Origin: Erythrobacter litoralis
GTDB lineage: Bacteria > Pseudomonadota > Alphaproteobacteria > Sphingomonadales > Sphingomonadaceae
Length of the DNA: 64,000 bases
Assembly (NCBI RefSeq): GCF_001719165.1
Contig: NZ_CP017057.1
Location: 1,178,001 to 1,242,000 of the forward strand
Direction: 5' to 3'
Positions 4,767-26,236 of this stretch are shown one piece after another (the first letter of the stretch is position 1; each line of letters opens with the position of its first letter). The position numbers and the translations under genes were made by a program. The notes beneath the pieces are model-generated. The model did not search any database and was not told the origin of the DNA. It worked only from the letters and a program-made list of their open reading frames with translations.

Positions 4767-4780
4767 GCCATAGGCGTGGC

Positions 4781-7524: not shown

Positions 7525-8450
7525 TGGCCCATGACATGAGCCATCCCGCAAAAGCCGGTTCGCCCGCCCGATCGATCGCTGGCGCGCCGATCGCCTTTGC
7601 CGGTTCGCCGATCGACCGCGCCGACCACATCCGCACCGATCCCGCAGCGCTCGGCAATCTGATGAACTGGCGCGCTCGGGTGCTGAACCTCGACGGGTTG
7701 CTGCCCGAATTCGACGACGAGGGCCGCCTGCTCTGGCACACGCTGGCCGATGTTGGCGAGGATACCGAACTCGTCTTTCTGGGCCTGCTCGACGACAAGG
7801 CCCATTTCGCGCCCGTCCCGCAGGAGGGCGCTTCGGGCCCGGCCATGCCGCGGGCGTGGCAGGCGATGCAGATGCTGCAGCCTGACGATCTCGCGCTTTA
7901 TGGCGGGGCGAGGAGCCTCGTCGACTGGCACGCGCGCCACCGCTTCTGCGCCAATTGCGGGTCGCCCACTGCAATCGCCAAGGGCGGCTGGCAGAGGAAT
8001 TGCGGCAATTGCGGCGCGCAGCATTTTCCCCGCACCGACCCGGTCACGATCATGCTGGTCGAACACGAAGACCGACTGCTTCTGGGCCGCCAGCCGCGTT
8101 TCCCCCCGCGCATGTATTCCGCGCTCGCGGGCTTCGTCGAACCGGGCGAGACGATCGAGGAAGCGGTCGCGCGCGAGGTGCAGGAGGAAGCGGGCATCAC
8201 CGTGCGCGACGTGCGCTATCTGGCGAGCCAGCCCTGGCCGTTCCCGAGCCAGCTGATGATCGGCTGCACGAGCGTTGCCGACAGTCCCGAACTCGAAATC
8301 GACCGGACCGAACTCGACGATGCGCGCTGGTTCACCCGCGAGGAACTGGAGGACGCCCGCCGCGCCGGGCCCGATGGCAACGAGACGCTCATCTTCCCGC
8401 AGAAATTCGCGATCGCCCACAGGCTCATCACATGGTGGCTCGACAGATGA
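7524..8450 (+). CDS. nudC: NAD+ diphosphatase NudC
   Basis: NudC hydrolyses NAD(H) to NMN and AMP and can remove NAD caps from RNA. The 308-residue protein has a four-Cys zinc ribbon (Cys142, 145, 160, 163), then the NUDIX box at about 203-225 (G-x5-E-x7-REVQEEAG), and the NudC signature SQPWPFP near residue 239, which separates it from other NUDIX enzymes. The ATG shares one base with the stop of the serine hydrolase, and its TGA overlaps the ATG of the next gene (ATGA), so the three genes look like one operon. Confidence 0.97.
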   Translation: MAHDMSHPAKAGSPARSIAGAPIAFAGSPIDRADHIRTDPAALGNLMNWRARVLNLDGLLPEFDDEGRLLWHTLADVGEDTELVFLGLLDDKAHFAPVPQEGASGPAMPRAWQAMQMLQPDDLALYGGARSLVDWHARHRFCANCGSPTAIAKGGWQRNCGNCGAQHFPRTDPVTIMLVEHEDRLLLGRQPRFPPRMYSALAGFVEPGETIEEAVAREVQEEAGITVRDVRYLASQPWPFPSQLMIGCTSVADSPELEIDRTELDDARWFTREELEDARRAGPDGNETLIFPQKFAIAHRLITWWLDR

Positions 8451-11818: not shown

Positions 11819-12574
11819 TCAAGCGATCGACAGGCCCCCGTCCACGATAAAGGGCGCGCCGGTGGCGAACCTGCTTTCGTCGCTGGCGAGATAGACGACG
11901 AGATGCGCAATGTCCTCGGGCTCGCCCATGTGGCCGACCGGCTGGGCCACGCTGAACGCTTCGCGCGTCGCGTCGGGATCGGGCGTTCCGGCGATGACGC
12001 TTTCGACATTAGGGGTCAGGATCGTCCCCGGCTGGACCGAATTGACGCGGATGCCGTTCTTCTCGCGCGCGCACCACAGCGCGATCGACTTGGTCAGCAT
12101 GGGCACGGCGGCCTTGGCGCTGTTGTAGGCGGCTAGATCCGCGCTCGGCTTGTTCGCGGCGGCGCTGGAAAAATTGACGATCGACCCGCCGCCGGACCTG
12201 GCCATCAGCGGGATCGCCGCCTTGCAGCCCATGAAGATCGAATCGACATCGACGGTGTAGCAGCGCCGGAAATCCTCGACGCTGATGTCCATGACCGAAC
12301 CGAAGACGGTGATCGCGGCGTTGTTCACGAGCACGTCGAGCCGGCCATGGTCACGCTCGATTTCGGCGATCACGGCGAGCCAGCGGTCCCAGTCGGTCAC
12401 GTCCTGAGCGATGAAGCTGCAGCCAACCTCCTGCGCCGTGGCCCGGCCGGCATCCTCGTCGATATCGGTGATGACGACCTGTGCGCCTTCGGCCACCAGT
12501 GCCTTTGCCGCCGCCTTGCCAAGGCCCATGGCGCCGCCCGTCAGCAGCACGACCTTGCCCGAAACCCGTCCCAT
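11819..12574 (-). CDS. Short-chain dehydrogenase/reductase
   Basis: A 251-residue classical SDR. The cofactor motif TGGAMGLG is at 12-19, an Asp that favours NAD follows (VVITDIDEDA), the NNAA motif is near 88, and the catalytic Ser and Tyr-x3-Lys (YNSAK) are near 141 and 154-158. The C-terminal VDGGLSIA is standard. The closest classes are 3-alpha/7-beta-hydroxysteroid or cyclopentanol-type dehydrogenases, but the substrate is not readable. It lies between DUF1489 and mgtE on the same strand. Confidence 0.95.
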   Translation of the reverse strand: MGRVSGKVVLLTGGAMGLGKAAAKALVAEGAQVVITDIDEDAGRATAQEVGCSFIAQDVTDWDRWLAVIAEIERDHGRLDVLVNNAAITVFGSVMDISVEDFRRCYTVDVDSIFMGCKAAIPLMARSGGGSIVNFSSAAANKPSADLAAYNSAKAAVPMLTKSIALWCAREKNGIRVNSVQPGTILTPNVESVIAGTPDPDATREAFSVAQPVGHMGEPEDIAHLVVYLASDESRFATGAPFIVDGGLSIA

Positions 12575-12607
12575 TCCCGCTCTCCCTCTTCCTGTCGGGG
12601 AAAGGAG

Positions 12608-14053
12608 CTAGAGCGAGGCGAGCCCGCTTGCCACTGCCAAACCTAGGAAGGCGAAAAAGCCCATCGAATCCGTGATCATCGTGACGAACACGCTGGAGGC
12701 GACCGCCGGGTCCTGCCCGAGCCGTTCGAAGATCACCGGGACCAGCACGCCCGCAAGCCCCGCGACCGCGATGTTGATGACCATGGCCGCTGCGATCACC
12801 GCGCCCATCATCGGCGAGAACAGCAGGCCCGCCGCGATCCCGATCAGCACCGCGACCGTCACCCCGTTCAGCATCGCGACGCGCATTTCGCGCCACAGGA
12901 TGCGCTTGGTGTTGGAGCGGGTCAGCTGGTTGGTGGCGATCGCGCGGACCGAAACCGCCATGGTCTGCGTCCCCGCATTGCCGCCGATGCTGGCGACGAT
13001 CGGCATCAGCACGGCCAATGCCACCAGTTCCTCGATCGCAGCGCCGAACAGGGCGATGATGCCGGAGGCCACCACCGCCGTGCCAAGATTGGCGACCAGC
13101 CAGCGCACGCGGCTCGAATAGGCCTCGCGGATCGGTTCGTTGATGTCGCCGTCGCCCGCGCCCGACATCAGCAGCGCGTCCTCGCCCGCTTCCTCGGAGA
13201 TGATGTGAACGACGTCGTCGACCGTCATCTGGCCGACCAGCCGCCCGCTTTCGTCCACGACGGCGGCGGAGATCAGGGCGTACTTCTGGAACATCAGCGC
13301 GACTTCCTCCTGGTCCATCGTGACCGGGATGAGCGTCTGGTCGCGCTTCATGATGTCGGTGAGCCTGACCCAGCGCGGGGCGGTGAGAATCCAGTTCAGC
13401 GCGCACGACCCCACAGGGTGATGCGCTGCGTCGATCACGAATACCTCGTGGAAATCGTGCGTGAAATCCCCGTTCTCGCGCAGATAGTCGATGAGGTCGC
13501 CGACCGTCAGGTGTTCGGGCACCGCCATGACGTGGCGGTTCATCAGCCGCCCGGCGGTCTCTTCCGGATAGGACAGCGCCGAATTGACCACGACCTGCGT
13601 TTCGGGCTGCAGATTGGCGATGATCGCCTTCTGGTCTTCCTCGTCGAGGTCCTCCAGAAGCTGCACCGCATCGTCGGTTTCGAGCTGCTGCGCGATCAGC
13701 GCGACCGCCTGGGCGGGCAGGGCCGTCATCATCTCGCCGCGCACGAAGTCGTTGAGTTCGGCGATGACATCGACCGTCATCAGGTCGGTGATGGCGGTGG
13801 CAAGCTGCTCGCGTTCGTCGCGGTCCAGCAGTTCCAGAAGGTCCGCGATGTCGGCCGGGTGGAGCGGCTCGACCAGGTCGTAGACCGCGCCCTTTTCGCC
13901 TTCTTCGAGCGCCTCGCGCACCGCGCTCACATATTCAGGCTTGAGCCGGTTCTCCTCGTCGTGGCGTTCGTCGTCGATGCGGTCGTCGGGACGCACGTCG
14001 TCCTCGAGCGCATCGGCAAGCAGCACGGCGTCCTTATCGGCGGGTTCGACCAT
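12608..14053 (-). CDS. mgtE: Magnesium transporter MgtE
   Basis: A 481-residue MgtE channel. The first 160 residues or so form the superhelical N domain (PLHPADIADLLELL, LPAQAVALIAQQL). A CBS pair follows at about 165-290, and five transmembrane helices occupy about 310-481, with the ion-pore region LPIVASIGGNAGTQT. MgtE takes up Mg2+ and closes when cytosolic Mg2+ binds the N and CBS domains. It is a single gene with its own start at 14053, 114 bases from the divergent cyclophilin gene. Confidence 0.97.
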   Translation of the reverse strand: MVEPADKDAVLLADALEDDVRPDDRIDDERHDEENRLKPEYVSAVREALEEGEKGAVYDLVEPLHPADIADLLELLDRDEREQLATAITDLMTVDVIAELNDFVRGEMMTALPAQAVALIAQQLETDDAVQLLEDLDEEDQKAIIANLQPETQVVVNSALSYPEETAGRLMNRHVMAVPEHLTVGDLIDYLRENGDFTHDFHEVFVIDAAHHPVGSCALNWILTAPRWVRLTDIMKRDQTLIPVTMDQEEVALMFQKYALISAAVVDESGRLVGQMTVDDVVHIISEEAGEDALLMSGAGDGDINEPIREAYSSRVRWLVANLGTAVVASGIIALFGAAIEELVALAVLMPIVASIGGNAGTQTMAVSVRAIATNQLTRSNTKRILWREMRVAMLNGVTVAVLIGIAAGLLFSPMMGAVIAAAMVINIAVAGLAGVLVPVIFERLGQDPAVASSVFVTMITDSMGFFAFLGLAVASGLASL

Positions 14054-14167
14054 GCCGCCCGGTCTAGGGATGGGCCGAGGAAAAGCAAGCCGGGCGCGCG
14101 CACTCAGGGGTGACTCGGCGGCTCAAGCCACTATACCGACACGCCAACCATTACGGGAGATTCACGC

Positions 14168-14632
14168 ATGGCAGACCAGACGCTTACCCTCACGCTCGAC
14201 ACCGGAAACGGGGAGGGCGGCGATGTCGTTATCAAGCTGCGGCCCGATCTCGCACCCGGCCATGTCGAACGGATCACCGAGCTTGCGAAAGAGGGTTTCT
14301 ATGACGGCGTCGTCTTCCACCGCGTGATCCCCGGCTTCATGGCGCAGGGCGGCGATCCGACCGGGACCGGAACGGGCGGCAGCGACAGGCCCGACCTCAA
14401 GGCCGAATTCAGCGCCGAACCGCACGTGCGCGGCGTGTGCTCGATGGCCCGCACGCCCAACCCGGACAGCGCCAATTCGCAGTTCTTCATCGTGTTCGAC
14501 GACGCGACCTTCCTCGACAAGCAATACACCGTTTGGGGCGAGGTCCAGAGCGGCATGGAACACGTCGACGCGCTGCCCAAGGGCGAGCCGCCGGCCAATC
14601 CGGGCAAGATCGTGAAGGCGAGCGTTTCCTGA
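14168..14632 (+). CDS. Cyclophilin-type peptidyl-prolyl isomerase
   Basis: A 154-residue cytoplasmic PpiB-like protein. The active-site motif FHRVIPGFMAQGGDPTGTGTGG spans about residues 50-71, and the second motif (MARTPNPDSANSQFFI) about 95-110. It catalyses cis-trans isomerisation of prolyl bonds during folding. A CGGGAG Shine-Dalgarno-like sequence sits before the ATG. The next gene, a lipoprotein, follows 50 bases later. Confidence 0.96.
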   Translation: MADQTLTLTLDTGNGEGGDVVIKLRPDLAPGHVERITELAKEGFYDGVVFHRVIPGFMAQGGDPTGTGTGGSDRPDLKAEFSAEPHVRGVCSMARTPNPDSANSQFFIVFDDATFLDKQYTVWGEVQSGMEHVDALPKGEPPANPGKIVKASVS

Positions 14633-14682
14633 ACGCAAGCACGCCGCCCGGCGAGACGAACGGAGCCTGCGAAGGAGGAACC

Positions 14683-15168
14683 ATGAGAAATCCCAGCATC
14701 ACCGCGCTTGCAGCGGGCGCAGCCTTGACGCTTGCCGCCTGTGGCGGCGAAAGCGGGGCGGAGACCGACGCATCCGCGCCCGAGGCGAGCGAAGGCAGCG
14801 GGGCCGACGCGGCGTTTCCCGAACTGAGCGAGGGCAAGGGGCCGGGCTCTGTTTCCGGCATGATCGCGGGCAATCCGGTCGAAGCGGAAGGGGTCTGTGC
14901 GACTTCGACCCAATCGTTCGATTTCTGGACCGACGGGACCGATTTCGCCAACGCGCGGGACACCACGGGCGATGGGCAGTATCTCATCCTGAACGTCGTC
15001 AACATGAACGGCAAAGTCCGCTCGGCCCTTCGATACAGCAAGGATGGCGAGACGATCTACAACGGCCTCGTCAGTTACGAATCCTTCGATGGCAGCACGG
15101 TGCGGGTCGATACGCCGCTCGGCCGTGAGCAGAAGATCTCGGCGGACTTGACGATATCTTGCGAATGA
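14683..15168 (+). CDS. Hypothetical lipoprotein
   Basis: A 161-residue lipoprotein. The lipobox ends LAAC about 19 residues in, followed by an acidic, Ser/Ala-rich linker (EASEGSGADA) and a small soluble domain from about residue 48. A strong Shine-Dalgarno, AGGAGG, at about 14673-14678 sets the start at 14683. The domain has a TTGDGQYLILNVVNMNGK core and two Cys that could pair. No family is recognised. A hairpin just downstream may end the transcript. Confidence 0.78.
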   Translation: MRNPSITALAAGAALTLAACGGESGAETDASAPEASEGSGADAAFPELSEGKGPGSVSGMIAGNPVEAEGVCATSTQSFDFWTDGTDFANARDTTGDGQYLILNVVNMNGKVRSALRYSKDGETIYNGLVSYESFDGSTVRVDTPLGREQKISADLTISCE

Positions 15169-15179
15169 ACCGGCAGGGC

Positions 15180-15206
15180 CCCACGAAGTCGGGGCCCCTT
15201 CGTGGG
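15180..15206 (+). terminator. Hairpin between lipoprotein gene and miaB
   Basis: Arms CCCACGAA and TTCGTGGG (15180-15187 and 15199-15206) enclose a GC-rich loop, 12 bases after the lipoprotein stop. An alternative stem GGGGCCCC is also possible. No T-run follows, so this is only a probable terminator or attenuating hairpin. Confidence 0.4.
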
Positions 15207-15257
15207 AGCGTGTGCCTTGTTGAACCCGCCGTCCATCGGCGCTAAGGCGCGCGCCTC

Positions 15258-16601
15258 ATGAAACCGCAGAATCCCCCTAGGACCTACCGGGTCAAGAGCT
15301 TCGGCTGCCAGATGAACGTCTATGACGGCGAGCGCATGGCCGAGCTGCTGGCGGAGCGCGGCATCACCCCCGCGGCCGAAGGGGATGAGGCCGATCTCGT
15401 GGTCCTCAACACCTGTCACATCCGCGAAAAGGCTGCTGAAAAGGTCTATTCCGACATCGGCAGGCTGGTGAAGGCGGGCGAGGAAGCGGGCCGCAAGCCC
15501 ATGATCGCGGTCGCGGGCTGCGTCGCGCAGGCCGAGGGCGAGGAGATCATGGCGCGCGCTCCGGCGGTGAGCATGGTGGTCGGCCCGCAGGCCTATCACC
15601 GCCTGCCCGAAATGCTCGACCGGGCGGCGCGCGGCGAGCGCTCGACCGACACCGACATGCCCGCGATCGCCAAGTTCGACGCGCTGCCGAAACGCAGGCG
15701 GCGCGCGCCCAATGCCTTCCTCACCGTGCAGGAAGGCTGCGACAAGTTCTGCACCTATTGCGTCGTGCCCTATACGCGCGGCGCGGAAATCTCGCGGCCC
15801 TTCCATGATCTGGGCGAGGAAGCGCGCAGGCTGGTCGATGCGGGCGCGATGGAAATCACCCTGCTCGGCCAGAACGTCAATGCCTGGCGCGGCGAGGACG
15901 ACAGGGGCCGCGCGGTCGGCCTTGCGGGCCTGATCCGCGCGCTCGCAAAAATCGACGGGCTCGAGCGCATCCGCTACACCACCTCGCACCCCAACGACAT
16001 GGAAGACGACCTCATCGCCGCGCATGGCGAGGTCGGCAAGCTCATGCCGTATCTCCACTTGCCCGTGCAGGCGGGCAGCGACCGGGTGCTCAAGGCGATG
16101 AACCGCCAGCACACCGCCGATAGCTATCTCAAACTGCTCGAACGCTTTCGCGAAGCGCGGCCCGACATCGCGCTGTCGGGCGATTTCATTGTCGGGTTTC
16201 CGGGCGAGACCGAGGCCGAGTTCGACGAAACGCTCGCGCTCGTCGACGCCGTCAGATACGCCCACGCCTTCAGCTTCAAGTATTCCCCGCGTCCCGGAAC
16301 GCCCGCCGCGACAATGGCGGACCAGCTCCCGCGCGAGGTCATGGACGAACGCCTCCAGCGCCTGCAGGCGCGCCTCAATCGCGACCAGCTCGCCTTCAAC
16401 GAGGCGAGCGTAGGCGGGACCTGCACCGTCCTCGTCGAGCGCAAGGGCAAGCATCCCGGCCAGTGGCTCGGCAAGTCGCCCTGGCTGCAGAGCGTCTGGT
16501 TCGAGGGAGCCGCGCAGATCGGCGACATCGTGAGCGTCGAACTCGCCGAGGCCGGACCCAATTCGATGCGCGGGCTCCTGCGGGAAACCGCGCTCGCCTG
16601 A
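15258..16601 (+). CDS. miaB: tRNA methylthiotransferase MiaB
   Basis: A radical-SAM enzyme that adds the methylthio group to i6A37 of tRNAs. The 447-residue protein has the N-terminal cluster ligands Cys17, Cys53 and a third in AVAGCVAQ near 87, the radical-SAM C-x3-C-x2-C at Cys161/165/168, and a C-terminal TRAM domain (about 375-440). All needed Cys are present. It begins the miaB-phoH-ybeY-corC block that is common in Alphaproteobacteria. Confidence 0.98.
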
Positions 16602-16756
16602 CGCTGCGACCCGTTACGAAATCGCGACGGACCCGCGGCGTTCCCGTGACTTTCCACCGTCTTGGAAAGGGGGCGCGCTTGCTTTGCGCCCCGCGCACCT
16701 TACCTTGACGAGTCGAGGAACGGCCAACCGCAAAAGGGCCAACCGCGAAGGAGCAT

Positions 16757-17788
16757 ATGGGCCGACGACCATCCCGCGCAGCCGATCCGGCGATCTCGCC
16801 CGATCCCCCCCGCACTGCGGTCCCCCGGCGCGCGCAGGCGGAGCTTTCCTTCGACAACCAGTCGCTGCTCGGCCCACTGTTTGGCCAGTTCGATGCGAAT
16901 CTCGTCCAGGTGGAAAACCGCCTTGGCGTTTTCATCCATGCACGCGGCGACAAGGTCATGATCGAGGGGCCGGAGGACAATGTCGCCCGCGCCCGCGACA
17001 CGCTCCAGACCATGTATGATCGCCTCGCCATGGGGCAGGACCTCGACGCGGGCGCGATCGAATCGCTCATTGCGATGTCGAACGAGCCGACATTGGAAGG
17101 CATCATTTCGGGCGAGACGAACGAGCCGCCGATCATGATTCGCACGCGGCGCAAGACGATCGTGCCGCGTTCGGCGACGCAGATCGCCTATATGCGCTCC
17201 CTTGCGCGCGACGACATCATCTTCGCATTGGGCCCGGCAGGGACCGGCAAGACCTATCTCGCCGTCGCGCAGGCGGTGAGCCAGCTGATGACCGGCAGCG
17301 TCCAGCGCCTGATCCTCTCGCGCCCCGCGGTCGAGGCGGGCGAGAAGATCGGCTTCCTGCCCGGCGACATGAAGGACAAGGTCGATCCCTACCTGCGCCC
17401 GCTCTACGACGCGCTCTACGACTGCATGCCGCCCGAACAGGTCGAGCGGCGGATCTTGAGCGGCGAGATCGAGATCGCGCCCATCGCCTTCATGCGCGGG
17501 CGCACGCTGGCCGATGCTTTCGTCATCCTCGACGAGGCGCAGAACACGACGCGCGAACAGATGAAGATGTTTCTGACCCGCTTCGGCATGAACAGCCGGA
17601 TGGTGATCTGCGGCGACCCGCGCCAGGTCGACATTCCGGGCGGCCCTAACATGAGCGGTCTGAACGATGCGGTCGGAAGGCTCGAAGGGGTGGACGGCTT
17701 CGGCACGATCCGCTTCACCGCCGCCGACGTGGTGCGCCATCCGATCGTGGGCCGGATCGTCGAGGCCTATGAGGGCGAGGGGGCGTAA
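16757..17788 (+). CDS. PhoH-family ATPase
   Basis: A 343-residue P-loop protein of the PhoH/PhoL group that usually neighbours ybeY. Walker A GPAGTGKT is at 159-166 and Walker B FVILDEAQNTT near 252-262. An N-terminal KH-like segment lies at about 40-100. PhoH-like proteins are thought to act in RNA metabolism with YbeY. A GAAGGAG Shine-Dalgarno precedes the ATG at 16757. The expected partner, ybeY, lies 3.4 kb downstream instead of next door, because an accessory cluster is inserted. Confidence 0.95.
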   Translation: MGRRPSRAADPAISPDPPRTAVPRRAQAELSFDNQSLLGPLFGQFDANLVQVENRLGVFIHARGDKVMIEGPEDNVARARDTLQTMYDRLAMGQDLDAGAIESLIAMSNEPTLEGIISGETNEPPIMIRTRRKTIVPRSATQIAYMRSLARDDIIFALGPAGTGKTYLAVAQAVSQLMTGSVQRLILSRPAVEAGEKIGFLPGDMKDKVDPYLRPLYDALYDCMPPEQVERRILSGEIEIAPIAFMRGRTLADAFVILDEAQNTTREQMKMFLTRFGMNSRMVICGDPRQVDIPGGPNMSGLNDAVGRLEGVDGFGTIRFTAADVVRHPIVGRIVEAYEGEGA

Positions 17789-18109
17789 GCCCGCAGGCGA
17801 ATGTCTGGTTTCGCCGGTTTGAACCCATAAGCAGTCTTACCGCTTGCGATCCCGTTCCGGCCATCCGGTCAAGCTTGACTCTGCCCGGCTAAGCTGAGGG
17901 CGAAATGCGGATCCCTTGACCGGTAGCAAGGCATGCAATCGCACGGCTGACTGTCCCACGATCCTTCCTCTTTTGCTGAACGCCCCGCGGATCGAGGCCG
18001 GTAGTCCTCAAGCCGCGCATAAAATCGATCAGACTGATCGCATCATTCAGGTAGTAGTCCTGCCATTATCGGCTAAGCACCGCCGGCGCATCATCGCGCA
18101 ACCCTAACG
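17789..18109. other. Non-coding gap after phoH
   Basis: About 320 bases with no convincing gene and more A+T than the flanking genes. The only structure I see is a perfect 15-base palindrome at 18026-18040. This marks the left boundary of the accessory insert between phoH and ybeY. No insertion-sequence ends or direct repeats were recognised at the boundary. Confidence 0.5.
18026..18040. promoter_or_regulatory. Operator-like palindrome
   Basis: CGATCAG-A-CTGATCG is a perfect inverted repeat with seven-base arms around a single base. It lies 70-115 bases before the possible starts of the next gene. This shape fits a dimeric repressor site, but no regulator is identified. Confidence 0.35.
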
Positions 18110-18454
18110 TTGTCTAAATTTCAACCTTTTGATGGCTTTTCTGGACCCGTGAATATGTATCGAGAAGTCAGGATTTGGGATGAGCGACAGCGTGAGGAAA
18201 CGTATCCTCCCGAAGCGCTCCGCGCCATTGAGGGCGATGAAGACATTCTCCCCATTTTCGCCCAAACAAGTGGGCCAACTGAGGACCATCACTTCGCAGC
18301 TGACAGCCAGCTCACGGTCCTCGCGATCGGCATTCTTGCCGCCGCGGCAGCCGTATTCGTGGTCGTCGGAGTAGAGCAGGCGCTTTCGACGGCTATCGAT
18401 AGCGGCTGGATCATCCAGCCGCCCGGGCCTGAAGCTTACAACCTACTCGACTAA
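18110..18454 (+). CDS. Small single-pass membrane protein, unknown
   Basis: Up to 114 residues from a TTG start, or 99 from the ATG at 18155; neither has a clear Shine-Dalgarno. An acidic, charged N-terminal half (ERQREETYPPEALRAIEGDEDILP) is followed by one hydrophobic helix (TVLAIGILAAAAAVFVVVGV) and a short tail. Codon use is less GC-rich than phoH. It lies in the insert that also carries a GT2 glycosyltransferase, so it might be an accessory membrane subunit, comparable in size to PgaD. That role is only inferred from position. Its stop overlaps that of a 30-residue gene on the other strand. Confidence 0.55.
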   Translation: MSKFQPFDGFSGPVNMYREVRIWDERQREETYPPEALRAIEGDEDILPIFAQTSGPTEDHHFAADSQLTVLAIGILAAAAAVFVVVGVEQALSTAIDSGWIIQPPGPEAYNLLD

Positions 18455-18543
18455 ATCGCGACGAGGGCGACTGCTGCCTTGCCTGCGAAGAGGCTGATCA
18501 GCAGCGCGAAGTCGATTGCACGGGTAACAGTCTCTTGCGCCAT
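18451..18543 (-). CDS. 30-residue membrane microprotein (candidate)
   Basis: A 30-codon frame starting MAQETVTRAIDF and ending in a hydrophobic helix (ALLISLFAGKAAVALVAI). A GGAGAG ribosome-binding site lies seven bases before the ATG. A second in-frame ATG five codons upstream has no such site. The gene is divergent from the GT2 gene across 155 bases and convergent with the 18110-18454 gene through a shared CTAA. The combination of a good ribosome-binding site, one helix and tight packing supports a real gene, but it is too short to be certain. Confidence 0.45.
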   Translation of the reverse strand: MAQETVTRAIDFALLISLFAGKAAVALVAI

Positions 18544-18698
18544 CTTGCAGCTCTCCATCGTTGCAGAGAGGGTCTGGCGGCTGAACCTTTCAGAAGAGAT
18601 TTCAGGATAGTCTTAACGCACCATTCACCCATCTCACGCGGCACCTGCGGCGATCAGCATTGAAGCGTAATACGATGACGAACCCGGAGGCGGCAGGA

Positions 18699-20084
18699 AT
18701 GACCGCTGCACTGCACAATCTGCCTGAACGCCGGGACTTCGGTCTCCGGCGAGGACGTCCCTATTGGGTCGGGCGGGCTCGGCGACGAAACGCCGTATAC
18801 GCAACGAGCCTGGTCTTCGCCTTGGTTTGGATGCTCTTTTCGCTTTGGCTTTCGCTTCCTTGGCTGGCCGATCTCAGCGAACTGACACATCCGACCCTCG
18901 CCATCACGGTCCTGACGTTCATCGCCTACATCCCTGGCTTCATGAATGCCTTTCTGCTCGCTTCGCTCGTGCTTCGCCCTTCGTCGCTGCGCGCCGATCC
19001 TCCGGTGTGGCCGGGCATCTCAATCCTGATTGCCGCTTACCAGGAAGAGGAGATGATCTCGCAGACCCTGCGCTCTCTTAGTGAACTGGACTATCAGGGA
19101 CCGCTGGAAGTGATCGTGATCGATGACGGGTCGCAAGACAACACCTTCGCCGTCGCCTCCTCTTGCCAGAGCCTGTGCGAGGCGCGGGACGACTTTTCCC
19201 TGATTCCTCTGAGATTGGCCAAGAACAGTGGAAAGGCGGCAGCTCTGAATTTCGGGCTAGCAAAGGCCTTTCACGATCTCGTCATCACTATTGATGCCGA
19301 TACTCGTCTGGAGCCGGGGGCGATCTCGGCGCTCGTTGCGCACCTTTATGCCGCACCGCCCCAGACCGCCGCCATTGCAGGAACCGTGCTGGTCGATAAC
19401 CCCAAGGCGACCCTCGTAACAGCAGCTCAGCAATGGGATTATTTCCACGGCATCGCGGCGGTTAAACGGATGCAGGGGATGTTCAATTCGACCCTGGTCG
19501 CCCAAGGTGCATTTTCGCTCTATCGAAAAGCGGCGCTGATCGAAGCCGGCGGTTGGCCTGATACCGTCGGCGAAGACATCGTCCTTACCTGGTCCTTCCT
19601 GCGACGGGGTTACCGGGTGCGGCATGCCGAAGATGCGATCGCCTGGACCCATGCGCCCGAGAGCTTTTCCGCGCTCGCCCGGCAGCGCAAGCGCTGGGCG
19701 CGAGGGATGATCGAGGCGCTCAATTTGCACAAGCGCCTTTTGATCATGCCGAGGCTCGGGACCATGTTTATTTATTGGAACCTGCTGTTCATCGCGATCG
19801 ACCTGGCTTTCACTTTCGCGTTCCTGCCGGGGATCGTGCTAGCCTTCCTTGGCATCTTCTGGCTTGCCGGGCCAATCACGTTGTTCGTGCTACCCCTCGC
19901 AGCGCTGTGGAATGTCATCATCTATCGCATCCAGACCCGCATGATGAAGCGAGAAGGTATCGCGATGGAGAAGAGCGCTTTGGGCTTTGTCCTTTTTGCA
20001 TTCTTTTATCCTGTCGTGATGCAACCGGTTTCTGTTTGGGGTTACATCTCGGAATTTTTCGGAAGGACCAAGCAATGGGGTTGA
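18699..20084 (+). CDS. Processive GT2 glycosyltransferase (PgaC/NfrB-like)
   Basis: An inner-membrane family 2 glycosyltransferase of about 461 residues. Two N-terminal helices are followed by a cytoplasmic catalytic domain with DDGS (nucleotide binding), the IDADTR DxD-type motif, a GED motif and RQRKRW (the Q/RxxRW motif of processive enzymes), then two or three C-terminal helices. This layout matches poly-GlcNAc synthase PgaC/IcaA and related polymerases such as NfrB. A GGAGG site eight bases before the ATG at 18699 favours that start over the upstream TTG at 18660 or ATG at 18675. The next gene overlaps its end and encodes a beta-barrel protein, suggesting synthesis plus export of a polysaccharide. 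Confidence 0.9.
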   Translation: MTAALHNLPERRDFGLRRGRPYWVGRARRRNAVYATSLVFALVWMLFSLWLSLPWLADLSELTHPTLAITVLTFIAYIPGFMNAFLLASLVLRPSSLRADPPVWPGISILIAAYQEEEMISQTLRSLSELDYQGPLEVIVIDDGSQDNTFAVASSCQSLCEARDDFSLIPLRLAKNSGKAAALNFGLAKAFHDLVITIDADTRLEPGAISALVAHLYAAPPQTAAIAGTVLVDNPKATLVTAAQQWDYFHGIAAVKRMQGMFNSTLVAQGAFSLYRKAALIEAGGWPDTVGEDIVLTWSFLRRGYRVRHAEDAIAWTHAPESFSALARQRKRWARGMIEALNLHKRLLIMPRLGTMFIYWNLLFIAIDLAFTFAFLPGIVLAFLGIFWLAGPITLFVLPLAALWNVIIYRIQTRMMKREGIAMEKSALGFVLFAFFYPVVMQPVSVWGYISEFFGRTKQWG

Positions 20085-21004
20085 ACCGCCTGAAGTGCAT
20101 GCTGCTGGTAAGCGGAGCAATGGCGGTCGGCGTGCCAGGCCAAGCGCAAGACGTGAACGGCCCCGGACCGGCTATCGGCACAGAGATATTCGTCTCCGAC
20201 GATAGCGACGAAAATACGATCGTGCGCACTGCGGTTGATCTGGACTTGCGGAATGACGGCGATGCTAAGCGTCTAGGCATCAGAATAGAGAACGCTTGGT
20301 ATCAGCCGCTGGGGCAACCGACCGAACAACGTCAGCGTGTGTTCTTGCAAGTTGGCGACCGCTCGGACGGCTGGACCTGGTCAGCGCGGGTCGGCACTGA
20401 TGGTGACGATGTCATAGGGTCCGCGTCGGTTTATGACGACTCCCGCTTCCGCAAGGAGTTTTTCATCGAGCGCGACGTCATTGAAACCCCGCTCGGGCTC
20501 GAGCGCGAACTTTATACCACGTTCGGCGGTGCGGCAGTCGATCTGCCTGTGAATGATAGGAACATCTTCACCGTGCTTGCTGGATTGCAGGAGTTTTCCG
20601 GCGAAAATGAACGCGTTCATCTTCGCGCGAATTTCGTGCACGTCGTCAAGCCCGAACTCGGATTGAGTGTTCAGCTACGTGGCCGGTATTTTCACAGCAC
20701 CGCCCCGGGCGAGTTCGACTATTTCTCGCCCCGGGATTTTGGACAGGTCCTCCCCGTGGTGCAGTTACGCCGCTTCATCGGAGGCTGGCAGTTTCTCGCG
20801 GTAGGCGGGATCGGAGCGCAGCGTTTCACGGGTTCGGATTGGCAGCAGGCGAACTACGCGGAACTCAAGGTGGAGGGCCCTGCGCGAGGACCATGGCGTG
20901 CGGCGGCCGAGGTGATCTACACAGACACTCCTGGAAACAATGCCGTTCAAACCGATAACTACAACTACGTCCAGGGTCGGTTTTCGCTGAGCCGGCGCTT
21001 CTGA
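20075..21004 (+). CDS. Outer-membrane beta-barrel protein, putative polysaccharide exporter
   Basis: A 309-residue protein with a signal peptide ending near GQAQ (about residue 24). The mature part is a series of alternating hydrophobic strands with aromatic girdle residues, and it ends in Phe (SLSRRF), the usual outer-membrane insertion signal. The segment GEFDYFSPRDFGQVLPVVQLRR resembles the barrel domains of exopolysaccharide secretins such as PgaA, BcsC and NfrA, but there is no TPR domain. Its ATG overlaps the end of the glycosyltransferase gene by ten bases. The exporter role is inferred from that pairing. Confidence 0.75.
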   Translation: MGLNRLKCMLLVSGAMAVGVPGQAQDVNGPGPAIGTEIFVSDDSDENTIVRTAVDLDLRNDGDAKRLGIRIENAWYQPLGQPTEQRQRVFLQVGDRSDGWTWSARVGTDGDDVIGSASVYDDSRFRKEFFIERDVIETPLGLERELYTTFGGAAVDLPVNDRNIFTVLAGLQEFSGENERVHLRANFVHVVKPELGLSVQLRGRYFHSTAPGEFDYFSPRDFGQVLPVVQLRRFIGGWQFLAVGGIGAQRFTGSDWQQANYAELKVEGPARGPWRAAAEVIYTDTPGNNAVQTDNYNYVQGRFSLSRRF

Positions 21005-21161
21005 AGGTTCGTTCAGGACATTCACGGCAATCCTGATCGTCCACTGAGCACCCACGCCCGGTCAATCGCCATCGGTCGATTACCCGCTCCTTCCTGACGG
21101 CTCGCACCTCTCCGACTCCCTTCTTTCCGGCGGGGACCGATCCGCGCTAAGGGCCCGCGTC

Positions 21162-21659
21162 ATGCAGCTCGACATCGACATCGACGAATGGCCGGCGGGC
21201 GATTGGGAGGCACTAGCCGCGCGCGCGGCCGGGGCGGCGGGGAAGGTCGCCCGCGAACTCGCCAATGCGCGACTCGCGGTGAGCGTGCTGTTCACCTCCA
21301 ACGAGGAGGTGCATGAACTCAACCGCGAATGGCGAGGGCGCGACAAGCCGACCAATGTCCTCTCCTTCCCCATGTTGGAGCGCGCCGAACTGCTTGGCCT
21401 TGCGCCCGACGGCCCGCCGGTCCTCCTCGGCGACATCGCATTGGCGCTCGGCGTCTGCATGCGCGAAGCGGAGGCCAAGGGCGCGAGTCTAGAGGCCCAC
21501 GCAGCGCATCTGATCGTCCACGGACTGCTTCACCTTGCCGGACACGACCACGTCGATTCCGACGAACAGGCCGAGGCGATGGAGGCGCTGGAAATCGCAG
21601 CCCTTGCAAAAATGGGCATCGCGGACCCATATGGGGATCGCGAAACGCCAGGAGCGTAA
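21162..21659 (+). CDS. ybeY: Endoribonuclease YbeY
   Basis: A 165-residue metal-dependent RNase involved in 16S rRNA 3'-end maturation and ribosome quality control. The zinc motif HGLLHLAGHDH with following D-S-D-E is near residues 120-135, and the RGxDKPTNVLSFP motif is near 60-71. Normally it follows phoH directly; here a 3.4-kb insert separates them. corC follows after 20 bases. Confidence 0.97.
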   Translation: MQLDIDIDEWPAGDWEALAARAAGAAGKVARELANARLAVSVLFTSNEEVHELNREWRGRDKPTNVLSFPMLERAELLGLAPDGPPVLLGDIALALGVCMREAEAKGASLEAHAAHLIVHGLLHLAGHDHVDSDEQAEAMEALEIAALAKMGIADPYGDRETPGA

Positions 21660-21679
21660 AGGAGCCTAGAGCAAGGGCC

Positions 21680-22642
21680 ATGCCCGATTCCCCATCCCCC
21701 TCCGGAGAAGCGGAGAGTAGCGGCGGATTGTGGTCCAATTTGGGGCCCGCGATCCGGAAAGCATTGAGACTCGGCGAAGGCGACCGCAGCCTGCGCGCAC
21801 AGCTCGAAGAGGCGATCGACGAGCACGAGGACGAAAACGAGGACGAGGAACAGCACGAAAGCTCCGCGGGCGGCAATGGTGACCTCTCGCCGGTCGAGCG
21901 GCAGATGTTACGCAACCTCCTGCATTTCTCCGACAACGATGCCGACGACGTCGCCGTCCCGCGCGGCGAGATCGTCGCGGTCGAGGCGGGGATCGGCTGG
22001 GACGAGCTTGTCGCGACCTTCTCCGAACACGGCCACTCGCGCATGCCGGTCTATCGCGGCACGCTCGACGACGTGATCGGCATGATCCACATTAAGGACG
22101 TCTTCGGCTATCTTGCGAACGGGAAGAAGCCGCCGCGCGACTGGACGGTGCTGATGCGCCAGCCGCTCTACGTGCCGCAGGCGCGCGGCGCGCTCGACGT
22201 GCTTGCCGACATGCGCGCGCGCCGGGTCCATCTCGCCATCGTTCTCGACGAGTTCTCCGGCACGGACGGCATCATAACGATCGAGGACCTCGTCGAGGAA
22301 ATCGTCGGCGAAATCGAGGACGAACACGATGAGACGCCCGAGGCGCTGATCGTTCCGATCGGCGACGGCATGTGGGATTGCGACGCGCGCGCCGAGCTCG
22401 ACGATGTCGCCGAACATGTCGACCCGCGCCTTGCCGAGGTCGAGGAATCGGTCGACACGCTGGGCGGGCTCGCCTTCGTGCTGGGCGAGGCGGTTCCGCC
22501 GGTCGGCGCGGTGCTGGAACATTCGAGCGGATGGCGCATTGAGGTCACCGAAGGCGACGACACCCATGTGAAGCGCCTCCGGCTCCATGCGCCGCATACG
22601 CGCCCGACCGAGCCTCTGCCCCAGCCGGCCGGCGTGCAATAA
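21680..22642 (+). CDS. CorC/HlyC-family CBS-domain protein
   Basis: A 320-residue cytoplasmic protein. An acidic linker (about 50-65) is followed by a CBS pair (about 80-200; RMPVYRGTLDDVIGMIHIKDVF and VLDEFSGTDGIITIEDLVEEIVGEI) and a C-terminal CorC_HlyC domain (about 225-305). It lacks the transmembrane DUF21 domain, so it is the CorC type, linked to magnesium/cobalt homeostasis. It follows ybeY as expected. The usual next gene, lnt, is absent; a LysR regulator follows instead. Confidence 0.93.
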   Translation: MPDSPSPSGEAESSGGLWSNLGPAIRKALRLGEGDRSLRAQLEEAIDEHEDENEDEEQHESSAGGNGDLSPVERQMLRNLLHFSDNDADDVAVPRGEIVAVEAGIGWDELVATFSEHGHSRMPVYRGTLDDVIGMIHIKDVFGYLANGKKPPRDWTVLMRQPLYVPQARGALDVLADMRARRVHLAIVLDEFSGTDGIITIEDLVEEIVGEIEDEHDETPEALIVPIGDGMWDCDARAELDDVAEHVDPRLAEVEESVDTLGGLAFVLGEAVPPVGAVLEHSSGWRIEVTEGDDTHVKRLRLHAPHTRPTEPLPQPAGVQ

Positions 22643-22659
22643 TCGCACATTCCCACCAG

Positions 22660-22686
22660 AAAAATCGATTTCGCTTCGATTTTTTG
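22660..22686 (+). terminator. AT-rich hairpin with T-run after corC
   Basis: Arms AAAAATCGA and TCGATTTTT (22660-22668 and 22676-22684) with a seven-base loop and a T-run. It lies 18 bases after the corC stop and 50 bases before the LysR start. It fits an intrinsic terminator, though the stem is A/T-rich. It could also serve as a LysR-type binding site. Confidence 0.5.
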
Positions 22687-22735
22687 CATCCAATCCGCTC
22701 GACATGCGTATCTCCTCCCACCAAGGAGTTCGTCC

Positions 22736-23620
22736 ATGCCGTCACGCCGTCTGCCTCCCCTTCGTGCGCTCGAAGCGTTCATGCGCACTGTCCGTCTCGG
22801 TTCCGCCCGCGCCGCGGCCGAGGAGATCGGATTGAGCCCATCGGCGCTTTCCCGCCGGATCACCAATCTGGAAGAATTCGTCGGCAAGAAGCTGTTCACG
22901 CGCGCGCGCCAGTCGATGCAGCTAACCGATGAGGGGCAGGCCTTCTACGAAGCGGTGAACCCGCATCTCGAAGCACTCGCGCGGGCGGTCGAAAGCCAGT
23001 CGGACAATGTCTCGCTGCTGCGCTTGCGCCTCGGCGTCCTGCCGATGTTCGGCAGCCAGCGCCTGTTCCCGCGGCTCGGCGAACTGAGAAAGCGCCACCC
23101 GCTGCTTCATATCGATATCGACACCGCGCCGCACCTCGAAGACCGTGTGGGCGATACGCTCGATGCCGCGATCATCCTGTCGCGGGGGCCGGCGAGCGGG
23201 CTCCACGCCGTGCGGCTCGACCACAATCTCGTCCATGCGATCTGCTCCAGGGACGTGGCCGATGCGATTGGCGATGCGATCACGCCCGAAAGCCTCTCGC
23301 GCCAGACCTTCCTTATCCATAACGAATTGCCCGAAAGCTTCGTCGCGTGGAAGAAAGCGAACGACCTGGAAGACATGGATCCGGCCGCGATCGACCATTA
23401 CGATTCGGGCCAGCTCATGCTCGAGGCCGCGGCGCAGGGGTTGGGCATTGCGATTATGCACGACGACCACCTGCGGCGGGCGGCGGACAACCGGCTCACC
23501 AACTTGCCGGGCGCCGAGGTGCAGAGCCCTTATTCCTACTGGTTCGTGTGCAAGCCGACCGCGCTCGAAATGCGGCCGGTCCGACTGTTTCACGACTGGC
23601 TGGTGCGCGCGGGGCTCTAG
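22736..23620 (+). CDS. LysR-family regulator
   Basis: A 294-residue regulator. The helix-turn-helix is at about 5-60 (LRALEAFMRTVRLGSARAAAEEIGLSPSALSRRI), followed by a linker helix and a substrate-binding domain. The pattern resembles the GcvA branch that has an RxLPPLRALEAF start. An AAGGAG site precedes the ATG. It has no divergent partner in the usual place, so its target is unclear. It ends three bases before the convergent plsC stop. Confidence 0.94.
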   Translation: MPSRRLPPLRALEAFMRTVRLGSARAAAEEIGLSPSALSRRITNLEEFVGKKLFTRARQSMQLTDEGQAFYEAVNPHLEALARAVESQSDNVSLLRLRLGVLPMFGSQRLFPRLGELRKRHPLLHIDIDTAPHLEDRVGDTLDAAIILSRGPASGLHAVRLDHNLVHAICSRDVADAIGDAITPESLSRQTFLIHNELPESFVAWKKANDLEDMDPAAIDHYDSGQLMLEAAAQGLGIAIMHDDHLRRAADNRLTNLPGAEVQSPYSYWFVCKPTALEMRPVRLFHDWLVRAGL

Positions 23621-23623
23621 GCG

Positions 23624-24541
23624 CTATTGCAGCGTTTCGGGGGTCGCTTCGCGGCGGCCCTGGTAACGCACCGGCGGAACGTCGTGGGCGAAATCGCGCA
23701 GCGGCTTGCCGAGCGCCTCGCGCAGCGCCTCCTCGATCCGGCGGCGCGCTTCGACGCTTATCGCCTTGCGGCCGCGGAAGTCCTCCGGGCTGAACGGTTC
23801 GAGGAACTCGATCCGCAGCACAAAGCTGCCCTTGCGCGAGAGCACCCGCTTGGCGTTGTTGAGCCCGCCTTCCTCGCCGATCCAGCCGATCCATTCGGCG
23901 ACCGAACCGTAATCGAGCAGCACCGGCTGCACGAGCACGCCGGGCGGCGGCGGTTCGAGCACGCTCAGCATGCTCGTCTTGAACGGGAGCAGCGATTGCC
24001 CGTCTGTGGTCGTGCCTTCGGGGAAGACCGTGACCGACCAGTTGTCGGCGAGAGCTTCCTTGAGGGCATTGATCTGTTCGGCGACGCCCATGCGGTGTTC
24101 GCGCTTTACGAAGACGGTGCGGTTGAGCGAGGAGAGCCAGCCCACCAGCGGCGCCTGCGCGAGCTCAGCCTTGGCGACGAATGCCGTTCCGCAGGCACCG
24201 GCAAGCGCAAGGATGTCGATCCAGGAGACGTGGTTCGCGACATAGAAAACGTCGCGTTTCAGGTGGGTGCCGACCACCTCGACCCTCGCCCCCGACACGC
24301 GCGCCGCATAGCGCAGGAACAGCATCGGGAAAGGGGAGCCATAGGCGAACACGCGATAGGCGTAATGGAGCGGCACGAAGACCAGCATCAGCACGAGCAG
24401 CGCAATCGAGCGCAGCACGATCCGCACCCAGCCCATCGCCGTGATCGGCGTCGCCTCTCCGCGCGCGGCGGCCTGGCGCAATTCCCACTGCGCCGCATCG
24501 CCGGACGCACCGGCATAGGCCTCGAACGAACCGTCAGTCAT
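23624..24541 (-). CDS. plsC: 1-acyl-sn-glycerol-3-phosphate acyltransferase
   Basis: A 305-residue membrane acyltransferase that makes phosphatidic acid. A hydrophobic helix at about 40-62 is followed by the catalytic NHVSWID (His104, Asp109) and FPEGTTTDGQS near 174-184. A 40-residue N-terminal extension and a C-terminal tail are longer than the minimal PlsC. In many Alphaproteobacteria this gene sits between fur and miaB. Here it follows fur, but miaB is on the other side and opposite strand. Its ATG lies in a 13-base tandem repeat that also holds the fur stop. Confidence 0.93.
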   Translation of the reverse strand: MTDGSFEAYAGASGDAAQWELRQAAARGEATPITAMGWVRIVLRSIALLVLMLVFVPLHYAYRVFAYGSPFPMLFLRYAARVSGARVEVVGTHLKRDVFYVANHVSWIDILALAGACGTAFVAKAELAQAPLVGWLSSLNRTVFVKREHRMGVAEQINALKEALADNWSVTVFPEGTTTDGQSLLPFKTSMLSVLEPPPPGVLVQPVLLDYGSVAEWIGWIGEEGGLNNAKRVLSRKGSFVLRIEFLEPFSPEDFRGRKAISVEARRRIEEALREALGKPLRDFAHDVPPVRYQGRREATPETLQ

Positions 24542-24567
24542 GGCTGTCAGTCATCGCCGTCAGTCAT
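24531..24567. repeat. 13-base tandem repeat across fur stop and plsC start
   Basis: Three near-identical copies of a unit containing GTCAGTCAT start at 24533, 24546 and 24559. On the minus strand each copy reads ATGACTGA. The fur stop is in the first copy on that strand and the plsC ATG is in the last. The two upstream ATG copies are in other frames and stop quickly. Confidence 0.85.
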
Positions 24568-24982
24568 CGCGCGAGAGCCGAACGCCGTATAGCTCCATGC
24601 GGTGATCGACGAGGCGGTAGCCCAGTTTTTCGGCGATCTGGCGCTGGAGCGATTCGACTTCGGGATCGACGAATTCGACGACCTTGCCGGTCTCGACGTC
24701 GATCAGGTGATCGTGATGCGCCTCTGGCACGGGTTCGTAGCGCGAGCGGCCGTCGCCGAAATCGTGCCGGTCGAGAATGCCCGCTTCCTCAAACAGGCGC
24801 ACGGTGCGATAGACGGTCGCGATCGAGATCTTGGGATCGATCGCGCTGGCCCGGCTGTGGAGCAGTTCAACATCGGGATGGTCGTCGCTTTCCGAAAGCA
24901 CCCTGGCGATGACGCGGCGCTGTTCGGTGATGCGCAGGCCTTTTTCCGCGCACAATTGTTCAAGATCGATTTTCTGGTTCAA
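24560..24982 (-). CDS. fur: Ferric uptake regulator, Fur family
   Basis: A metal-responsive repressor of about 140 residues. The winged helix occupies residues 10-80 (RITEQRRVIARVLSESDDHPDVELLHSR... ISIATVYRTVRLFEEAGI), then the His-rich metal site (AHHDHLIDVETGKVVEF) and the dimerisation domain. The C-terminal CxxC zinc pairs are missing, as in many alphaproteobacterial Fur/Mur proteins. The preferred start is a TTG at 24980-24982 giving MNQKIDLEQLC, six bases after AGGGAG; a GTG at 24998-25000 would add six residues. Next to plsC and rimI, as in the common alphaproteobacterial block. Confidence 0.93.
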   Translation of the reverse strand: MNQKIDLEQLCAEKGLRITEQRRVIARVLSESDDHPDVELLHSRASAIDPKISIATVYRTVRLFEEAGILDRHDFGDGRSRYEPVPEAHHDHLIDVETGKVVEFVDPEVESLQRQIAEKLGYRLVDHRMELYGVRLSRDD

Positions 24983-25163
24983 GCGTATCTCCCTCGCCAC
25001 GGGGCAGGCCGCGCCTGCAAGAAGGCTCGCACCCGGACTTATCTGGGTAAGACCTTACCGGGACCGGGCAGAATGCTCAAGCAGGGCAGGTCCGAAAGCG
25101 GCGGAAGGACGGTGCGACCCGAAGGACGACCTCCCGCCCGCTTCGCGGTCCGTCAGCGGACGA

Positions 25164-25601
25164 TCAGGACGTTTTCTTGAGCCCGCGGCCCGAACCCGGC
25201 TTGCGCCCGAGGCCGATCTTCTTGGCCAGATCGCGGCGGGTTTCGGCGTAATTGGGCGCGACCATCGGGTAGTCGGAGGGGAGATTCCAGCGCTTGCGAT
25301 ATTCTTCCGGGGTCATGTTGTAATTGGTGCGCAGATAGCGCTTGAGCATCTTGAGCTTCTTGCCGTCCTCGAGACAGACGATGTAATCAGGCTTGACCGA
25401 AGCGCGGATCGAAACTGCTGGTTCGGGCGGTTCGGTTTGCGTTTCCTGTTCCTGTCCGAGCTGCGAAAGCGCGCCGAAGACACTCGTGATAAGTGCGGGG
25501 ACATCGCCCACCGCGACATCATTGTTGCTGACATGAGCGGCGACAATATCGCTCGTCAGCGTGATCAGTGTTTCCTTCATGTCGTTTTCCAGATCCTGCA
25601 T
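25164..25601 (-). CDS. MucR/Ros-family regulator
   Basis: A 145-residue zinc-finger regulator typical of Alphaproteobacteria. An N-terminal oligomerisation region (LITLTSDIVAAHVSNN) is followed by the Ros/MucR finger (IVCLEDGKKLKMLKRYLRTNYNMTPEEYRKRWNLPSDYPMVAPNYAETR), then a basic tail. In this copy the second Cys of the finger is replaced by Asp and one His by Asn, as occurs in several MucR proteins. The start at 25601 has GAGG five bases upstream; the open frame goes on another 20 codons. Such proteins are H-NS-like gene silencers that often control exopolysaccharide, which is relevant to the GT2 cluster upstream. Confidence 0.92.
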   Translation of the reverse strand: MQDLENDMKETLITLTSDIVAAHVSNNDVAVGDVPALITSVFGALSQLGQEQETQTEPPEPAVSIRASVKPDYIVCLEDGKKLKMLKRYLRTNYNMTPEEYRKRWNLPSDYPMVAPNYAETRRDLAKKIGLGRKPGSGRGLKKTS

Positions 25602-25729
25602 GAGTTCCTCATTGTTTATCGGGTTTTCCCCTTTGCCGGCGTCGTGCCGATTTTTGCGCAATGAAGCAGCTTTGCCCGCATTGCAAGCAGGCAGCGTTCT
25701 TATTGTGCGAATTACAGGGTCAGATAAAA

Positions 25730-26236
25730 TTAGATCGAACGGCCGAAAGTAATGGCGTCCACTCGGTTGCCATTGGCGAGCCGGTAATAGTTGGGGCGTT
25801 CGCCGATCGGCTCAAAGCCGACCTTGCGATAGAGATTGATCGCCGGATTGCCGCGCCGCATTTCGAGGAAAATGCGCGTTGCCCCGCGCGCCCGGGCGGC
25901 ATCGAACAGGCGGTCGATCAGCATCTGGCCGAGCCCACGCCGGCGGCACGCGGGGACGACGCCGATCAGCAGCAATTCCTCCTCGTCGACGGCATGGCGC
26001 GTGAGGACGAAGCCCGCTGGCGATCCGGCGTCGTCCTGCGCGCTCCATTCGCCGTGCCCGGTCCGGTCGCTCGATGCGATGATGTTGCCGCCCGCGTCGA
26101 GCACGAGCGCATGGGTGCTCGGCAAAACCAGCGCATCGGCGACCTGGCGCCGGTTCCACGCCTCGCCGAAAGCGGGGTCGAAGGCGGCCTCCATCACTTC
26201 CATGATCTGATCGACGAGCTGGTCGCGTGGGCTCAT
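25730..26236 (-). CDS. rimI: Ribosomal-protein-alanine N-acetyltransferase RimI
   Basis: A 168-residue GNAT acetyltransferase. The acetyl-CoA motif is VVPACRRRGLGQMLIDRL, and the C-terminal part has the RimI-like NPAINLYRKVGFEPIGERPNYY. It acetylates the N-terminus of ribosomal protein S18 in enterics. Its ATG overlaps the tsaB stop by four bases; this coupling to tsaB is the usual arrangement and supports the assignment over other GNAT proteins. Confidence 0.9.
   Translation of the reverse strand: MSPRDQLVDQIMEVMEAAFDPAFGEAWNRRQVADALVLPSTHALVLDAGGNIIASSDRTGHGEWSAQDDAGSPAGFVLTRHAVDEEELLLIGVVPACRRRGLGQMLIDRLFDAARARGATRIFLEMRRGNPAINLYRKVGFEPIGERPNYYRLANGNRVDAITFGRSI

Follow-up and report, generated by a model that had tools for sequence, protein, structure and literature searches.

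Within a window of 64,000 nucleotides of Erythrobacter litoralis DNA (contig NZ_CP017057.1, positions 1,178,001 to 1,242,000), phoH and ybeY lie 3,373 bp apart, and we consider it probable that the interval between them is a hotspot for cargo in the genus, occupied in this case by a transferable, minimal module for synthase-dependent exopolysaccharide production. The computed support consists of the gene content of the interval, the linkage of a family 2 glycosyltransferase (GT2) to an outer-membrane barrel, the predicted secretin fold of that barrel, the conservation of a micro-protein, the patchy presence of the module and the differing sites of its carriers; from these we infer that the module exports a polymer. 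The interval runs exactly from 17789 to 21161, from after the phoH stop codon to before the ybeY ATG. A preliminary description of this DNA, which gave the distance as 3.4 kb, with miaB before phoH, corC after ybeY and two small membrane proteins, a GT2 and a barrel inside, proved accurate on each of these points. The features are as follows.

18675..20084, + strand: PgaC-like GT2 with hydrophobic segments at both termini (PF13641, E 1.8e-28); start codon uncertain
20075..21004, + strand: predicted 16-stranded outer-membrane beta-barrel of the exopolysaccharide-secretin type, 309 aa, with an N-terminal hydrophobic helix and no tetratricopeptide repeat (TPR)
18155..18454, + strand: small protein of 99 aa with one transmembrane segment; a TTG at 18110 is an alternative start (homologue P0121 is 91% identical and also 99 aa)
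18451..18558, - strand: 35 aa micro-protein with one hydrophobic segment, its gene convergent with the 99 aa gene (ends overlap) and divergent from the GT2 gene
16757..17788, + strand: phoH, bounding the variable interval on the left (PF02562, E 4.8e-89)
21162..21659, + strand: ybeY, right border (PF02130, E 1.9e-32)
17789..18154, no strand: leader region without an assigned gene, AT-richer (GC 0.56); matches neither Rfam nor, by blastn, the sister interval
18559..18674, no strand: putative divergent promoter region, from the gene geometry between micro-protein and GT2

The phoH-ybeY junction across relatives

We took the ybeY region from 37 other genomes of the genus (a ybeY match was missing in 3 of 41 genus genomes). 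phoH was also visible in 33 of these stretches; the gap count omits L077, L083 and L093, which were ended by the contig, and L069, which has no phoH within 9.9 kb upstream of ybeY. The two genes were 406-8,483 bp apart in 29 of the 33 genomes and 0-6 bp apart in the other four, with a median over all 33 of 1,611 bp. An outgroup of 20 stretches, or 19 once L151 without phoH is left out, comprised 11 genomes of the family from outside the genus, of which three were split by at least 400 bp, and eight from other families of the order, all with the genes within 143 bp and none split. The preliminary description had called phoH and ybeY normally adjacent, which is right for the other families (8/8) and wrong for this genus (29/33 split).

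What fills the junction varies widely. A Pfam scan of 50 cargo proteins, many of them without a match, returned pili with usher and chaperone, MacB/HlyD/OEP export, TrkH/TrkA, erythromycin-esterase-like proteins, a protoglobin chemoreceptor, CobW, RimK, an M3 peptidase with an amino-acid permease, Cu/Zn superoxide dismutase and others. Among 64 cargo open reading frames (ORFs), some of which overlap, only seven pairs matched across genomes; for the small protein, GT2 and barrel of the window there was no match in this set of cargo ORFs from relatives. Empty sites are scattered over a tree of four concatenated core proteins (branch support not shown), with empty genomes beside filled ones (L090/L091, L096/L081, L092/L070), and the nearest sister (G026, locus L094), whose phoH is 98% identical, has 2,530 bp of different cargo at the junction. 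Collectively, the split gaps, mostly differing cargo, scattered empty sites and the sister with other cargo indicate, on sequence comparison, that the phoH-ybeY junction is a site of recurrent gene gain and loss in the genus. The earlier picture of a unit inserted in a core operon therefore stands as to the insertion and falls as to a one-off interruption of an intact operon; comparison with close relatives did not return the same four genes everywhere with matching GC.

DNA similarity running beyond the phoH stop ceases at 17789-17791 in four loci, 1-3 bases past the stop, and picks up again at 21125-21161 in 20 loci; phoH and ybeY are both above the Pfam cut-offs, and miaB and corC are their outer neighbours in the window and in relatives. 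The insert had been described as lower in GC, which we confirmed: 500-base windows give 0.55-0.61 at about 17.75-21.0 kb versus 0.63-0.70 outside, and GC at third codon positions (GC3) is 0.62-0.69 in three insert genes versus 0.77-0.87 in miaB, phoH, ybeY and corC. Pfam scanning of the interval, repeat searches and tRNA searches gave no integrase, recombinase or att site at the window junction; there is no tRNA in 12000-26000, no Rfam match in 16500-22800 up to E 0.1, and no repeat pair bracketing both borders, only short chance-like repeats, in keeping with the earlier statement that no insertion-sequence ends were seen there. Insertion-sequence or prophage cargo was rejected, as no such Pfam match occurs in the interval.

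This lack of a bracketing repeat or tRNA would also suit a junction that is in no way special and has simply expanded, as intergenic regions ordinarily do in plastic genomes. So would the miaB-phoH gap, which is over 700 bp in 14 of the 32 genus genomes. We regard that explanation as possible, if somewhat doubtful, given the contrast between 29 of 33 genus genomes split by at least 400 bp and 3 of 19 outside the genus, and given cargo that differs even between sister genomes. Moreover, in all 37 stretches no more than about 100 bp separates the ybeY match from the corC match, distances that come from match positions, some alternative values being negative through partial corC matching.

Two further observations concern the flanking genes. 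The miaB-phoH gap ranges over 103-4,513 bp (L063-L099), the whole string being loosened. Between G026 and the window, PhoH is 98%, MiaB 89%, CorC (partial) 90% and YbeY 79% identical, and the divergence of YbeY next to the hotspot possibly reflects recombination or fast change.

The glycosyltransferase-barrel module and its distribution

The barrel gene overlaps the GT2 gene by 10 bp. PgaA is the closest structural match of the predicted barrel, and in a comparison of barrel structures the secretins lead the next barrels by about 7-8 Z units, so that by its predicted fold the barrel is of the exopolysaccharide-secretin type, which fits the surface-polysaccharide role proposed earlier. The GT2 matches PF00535 in addition to PF13641. 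Its top NCBIfam model is TIGR03937 PgaC_IcaA (164 bits vs a cut-off of 422), followed by an XrtG-associated family, NodC, MftF and CelA (63.8 vs a cut-off of 699 bits), and its PDB matches include cellulose and hyaluronan synthases. The sequence also holds QRKRW, which we take to be the Q-x-x-R-W signature of processive GT2 enzymes; processivity and polymer identity are predictions.

Lipid-linked sugar transferases are also found among the GT2 matches, and other, ordinary porins reach Foldseek E values of 1e-7 to 1e-6 against the barrel, as would be the case if the product of the GT2 were a short or lipid-linked glycan, with the barrel a common porin travelling along. The lead of the secretins over other barrels, the retention of the GT2-barrel pair in 22 of 23 loci with the barrel across 14 genera, and the terminal hydrophobic segments of the GT2, which presumably suit a processive synthase, make that account improbable in our judgement.

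A close GT2 occurs in 2 of 37 genus genomes, the window genome (G000) and G003 (75% identity), the next hit in the genus being at 32%; a genome search of the sister G026 gave weak glycosyltransferase matches only (best E 2.2e-4). In G003 the module is at a different site, at 1.62 Mb with ybeY at 59.6 kb; a tyrosine-recombinase gene is about 0.5 kb away from it and a second integrase-family gene is near. Beyond the genus, the barrel is present in 19 of 397 family genomes and 14 of 96 genera, and a protein search with it yielded 454 homologues, 120 of them listed. We assembled 23 module loci from the neighbourhoods of 20 other barrel copies plus L002, L003 and L100. GT2 stands directly upstream of the barrel in 22 of them, the exception being a short match only, which indicates that the two travel as a pair. 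With carriers limited to 2 of 37, a sister without the module and the other carrier's copy elsewhere beside recombinases, sequence comparison supports an accessory and acquired unit, self-contained as had been proposed.

The opposing view, that the module is old in the family, descended vertically with many losses and relocations and came to its present position by rearrangement, draws on the divergence between G000 and G003 (GT2 75%, barrel 68-72%), which resembles that of core genes (72-86% identity) and disfavours a distant donor, and on the named relatives, a minority of the hits, which are Sphingomonadales. A donor outside the order was rejected because these relatives do not indicate one. 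We nevertheless think vertical descent unlikely, since only 2 of 37 genomes carry the module, it was not found in the sister G026, the two carriers have it at different sites, one beside integrase-family genes, and the window copy is lower in GC3 than its host.

The module region of G003 (L100:4314-9441) also has a TonB-dependent receptor. In L125, GT2 matches at 6254-7568 fall in two pieces in different frames, which may be a broken gene or a sequencing error, and an IS605-type transposase gene lies upstream, at 3570-4799.

The small proteins and elements upstream of ybeY

Relatives of the 99 aa protein, alignable with the window's, lie 210-376 bp upstream of the GT2 match in 6 of the 23 fetched loci (L100, L122-L126), those with the GT2s most similar to the window's. 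A profile search with this family found at least 14 proteins, some of them input rows, and a Pfam domain in none. A micro-ORF occurs at the same place and on the same strand in all seven loci having the small protein, the window included. It spans 30-66 codons from the first start and 30-35 once trimmed to the conserved part, with the consensus RxIDxALxxxxFAGKAAxAL. In leave-one-out searches with a hidden Markov model, the left-out micro-ORF came top each time once training segments were excluded from the 31,268; E was below 0.01 in six of seven cases and 0.3 for L122. These scores are somewhat favoured by the choice of micro-ORFs by place and hydrophobicity; a second hydrophobic minus-strand ORF in the window and L123, as well as unrelated hydrophobic ORFs in L131 and L134, had been set aside. 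Across the 397 family genomes the profile gave six hits, all module carriers and model members, and two marginal others (E 0.007-0.008). We take the 35 aa ORF, on this conservation, to be a genuine micro-protein confined to one branch of the module. A sigma70 scan placed no site in 18559-18674, with one site overall versus 0.9 by chance.

Upstream of ybeY, one further feature of the window lies inside the interval.

21144..21153, + strand: GCGCTAAGGG, putative -10 element of a near-leaderless ybeY promoter (GCTA[ATG]GG motif)

In 15 of 38 genus genomes, that of the window among them, GCTA[ATG]GG lies upstream of ybeY and no more than 30 nt from its start, versus about 0.14 expected from its frequency in the stretches. 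This excess suggests that ybeY often has transcription of its own, independent of phoH. Nine genomes, some with a looser form, have a tandem-repeat element upstream of ybeY, and one of these also has GCTA[ATG]GG. Neither element is present in any of the four empty sites, nor in 10 of the 29 filled ones.

The perfect form of the repeat, with the 9-bp unit GTGTNNCAN, begins about 40-55 bp upstream of ybeY in L069, L082, L083, L095 and L097. Of 41 genus genomes, 15 contain its pattern, ten of them in 5-34 copies, versus four hits in total for a reversed control pattern; NN is largely genome-specific (TC, CT, CG or GT), and the window genome has zero occurrences. Further repeat sites were read in G012, G024 and G030 (L162-L201). 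Five of the 21 in G012, that of ybeY included, precede a gene with a homologue following one of the 18 sites read in G024, genes we take to be moaC, lpdA and chpT among others. Because such sites precede homologous genes, the repeat looks like a regulator's operator, its sequence co-evolving between species.

Proposed function and known exopolysaccharide systems

We propose that the GT2 would polymerise a sugar nucleotide, probably into a beta-linked glucose or N-acetylglucosamine (GlcNAc)-type polymer, and would pass the growing chain through its own membrane helices, with the 16-stranded barrel releasing it across the outer membrane. The 99 aa and 35 aa proteins may be subunits that assist or regulate the synthase, replacing PgaD-type or PilZ control. 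A bolder version, in which GT2 and a bare secretin suffice as a mobile TPR-less exporter gated by tiny proteins, the micro-protein being a new kind of synthase regulator, we put forward tentatively and as the lesser expectation.

Several points weigh against a minimal exporter. The GT2 reaches no NCBIfam cut-off among the best 25 of 31 models, PgaC, CelA and NodC included, and its predicted structure, from three sequences, was poor (predicted local distance difference test score 48.6) and was not used. Neither small protein was found in the other 17 fetched loci, so neither is essential to the GT2-barrel pair. Module GC resembles flank GC in several hosts, G003 included (62.4 vs 62.6%), which assigns the low GC to the window copy and not to the module. 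Pfam detected no TPR, deacetylase or PilZ domain in the interval proteins; secretion in the Pga system needs partial deacetylation, according to PMC9384988, so a bare pair without a deacetylase in the interval may not export. Among the module neighbours scanned (20 proteins in other loci and six in G003), a protein beside the L133 module has a borderline TPR_4 match (28.4 vs 27 bits) and may be a separate TPR partner of the module.

A link to cyclic di-GMP (c-di-GMP) is suggestive only. Six of the 23 loci have GGDEF proteins close to the module, seven in total and two of them with EAL too, versus about one expected, an expectation that is rough, coming from 14 matches in the 3.25 Mb window genome, the loci being related and the neighbours drawn from blast-selected clusters; the window interval itself has no GGDEF gene. 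Elsewhere in the window genome, two GGDEF matches 20 kb apart (G000:C1:2265796-2286179) have identical scores, which suggests a recent duplication.

If the proposal is true, the recurrence of a bare synthase-barrel pair in many genera would point to the minimal machine and provide a small system for reconstitution. The micro-protein would be a conserved membrane protein of 30-35 aa, a size that short-gene cut-offs can miss, and the survey presents a conserved housekeeping pair that, within a single genus, has become a site for cargo in most of the species sampled. A narrow literature search, over titles and the starts of abstracts, found no description of the module or of a phoH-ybeY hotspot. 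The junction is like integration hotspots and genomic islets in having one core junction with mostly different cargo in relatives and some empty sites, and differs in that the window interval has no integrase, and searches for a bracketing repeat or a tRNA gave neither.

Synthase-dependent systems use an inner-membrane GT2 polysaccharide synthase. The window has a counterpart in the GT2, whose PF13641/PF00535 and PgaC-like matches predict synthase activity. Such systems also have an outer-membrane pore, a periplasmic TPR domain coupled to it, a periplasmic polymer-modifying enzyme and a c-di-GMP-binding domain or co-polymerase, as listed in PMC7112194. The predicted barrel would supply the pore. 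No TPR match occurs in the interval, the barrel being 309 aa, and TPR proteins elsewhere in the genome were not searched for; no polymer-modifying enzyme is encoded in the interval, with four PF01522 matches elsewhere in the genome. PilZ has no match among the interval proteins, and the small proteins could be the counterpart of a c-di-GMP-binding domain or co-polymerase.

Unlike Bcs (BcsA, BcsC), the interval proteins have neither PilZ nor TPR, and the CelA score is far below its cut-off; unlike the PelB/PelC pore, the four-gene interval encodes nothing recognised as PelC-like and no TPR. PgaD (PF13994) had 0 matches in the window genome; of the 14 control genomes in that search, only E. coli gave a match. 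A classical poly-GlcNAc or cellulose operon was rejected on the missed cut-offs and the absence of PgaD and PilZ. Although the window differs from PgaABCD in its TPR-less barrel, the lack of a PgaB-like gene in the interval and the missed PgaC cut-off, it shares with that poly-GlcNAc system a PgaC-like GT2 paired with a 16-stranded barrel that best matches PgaA.

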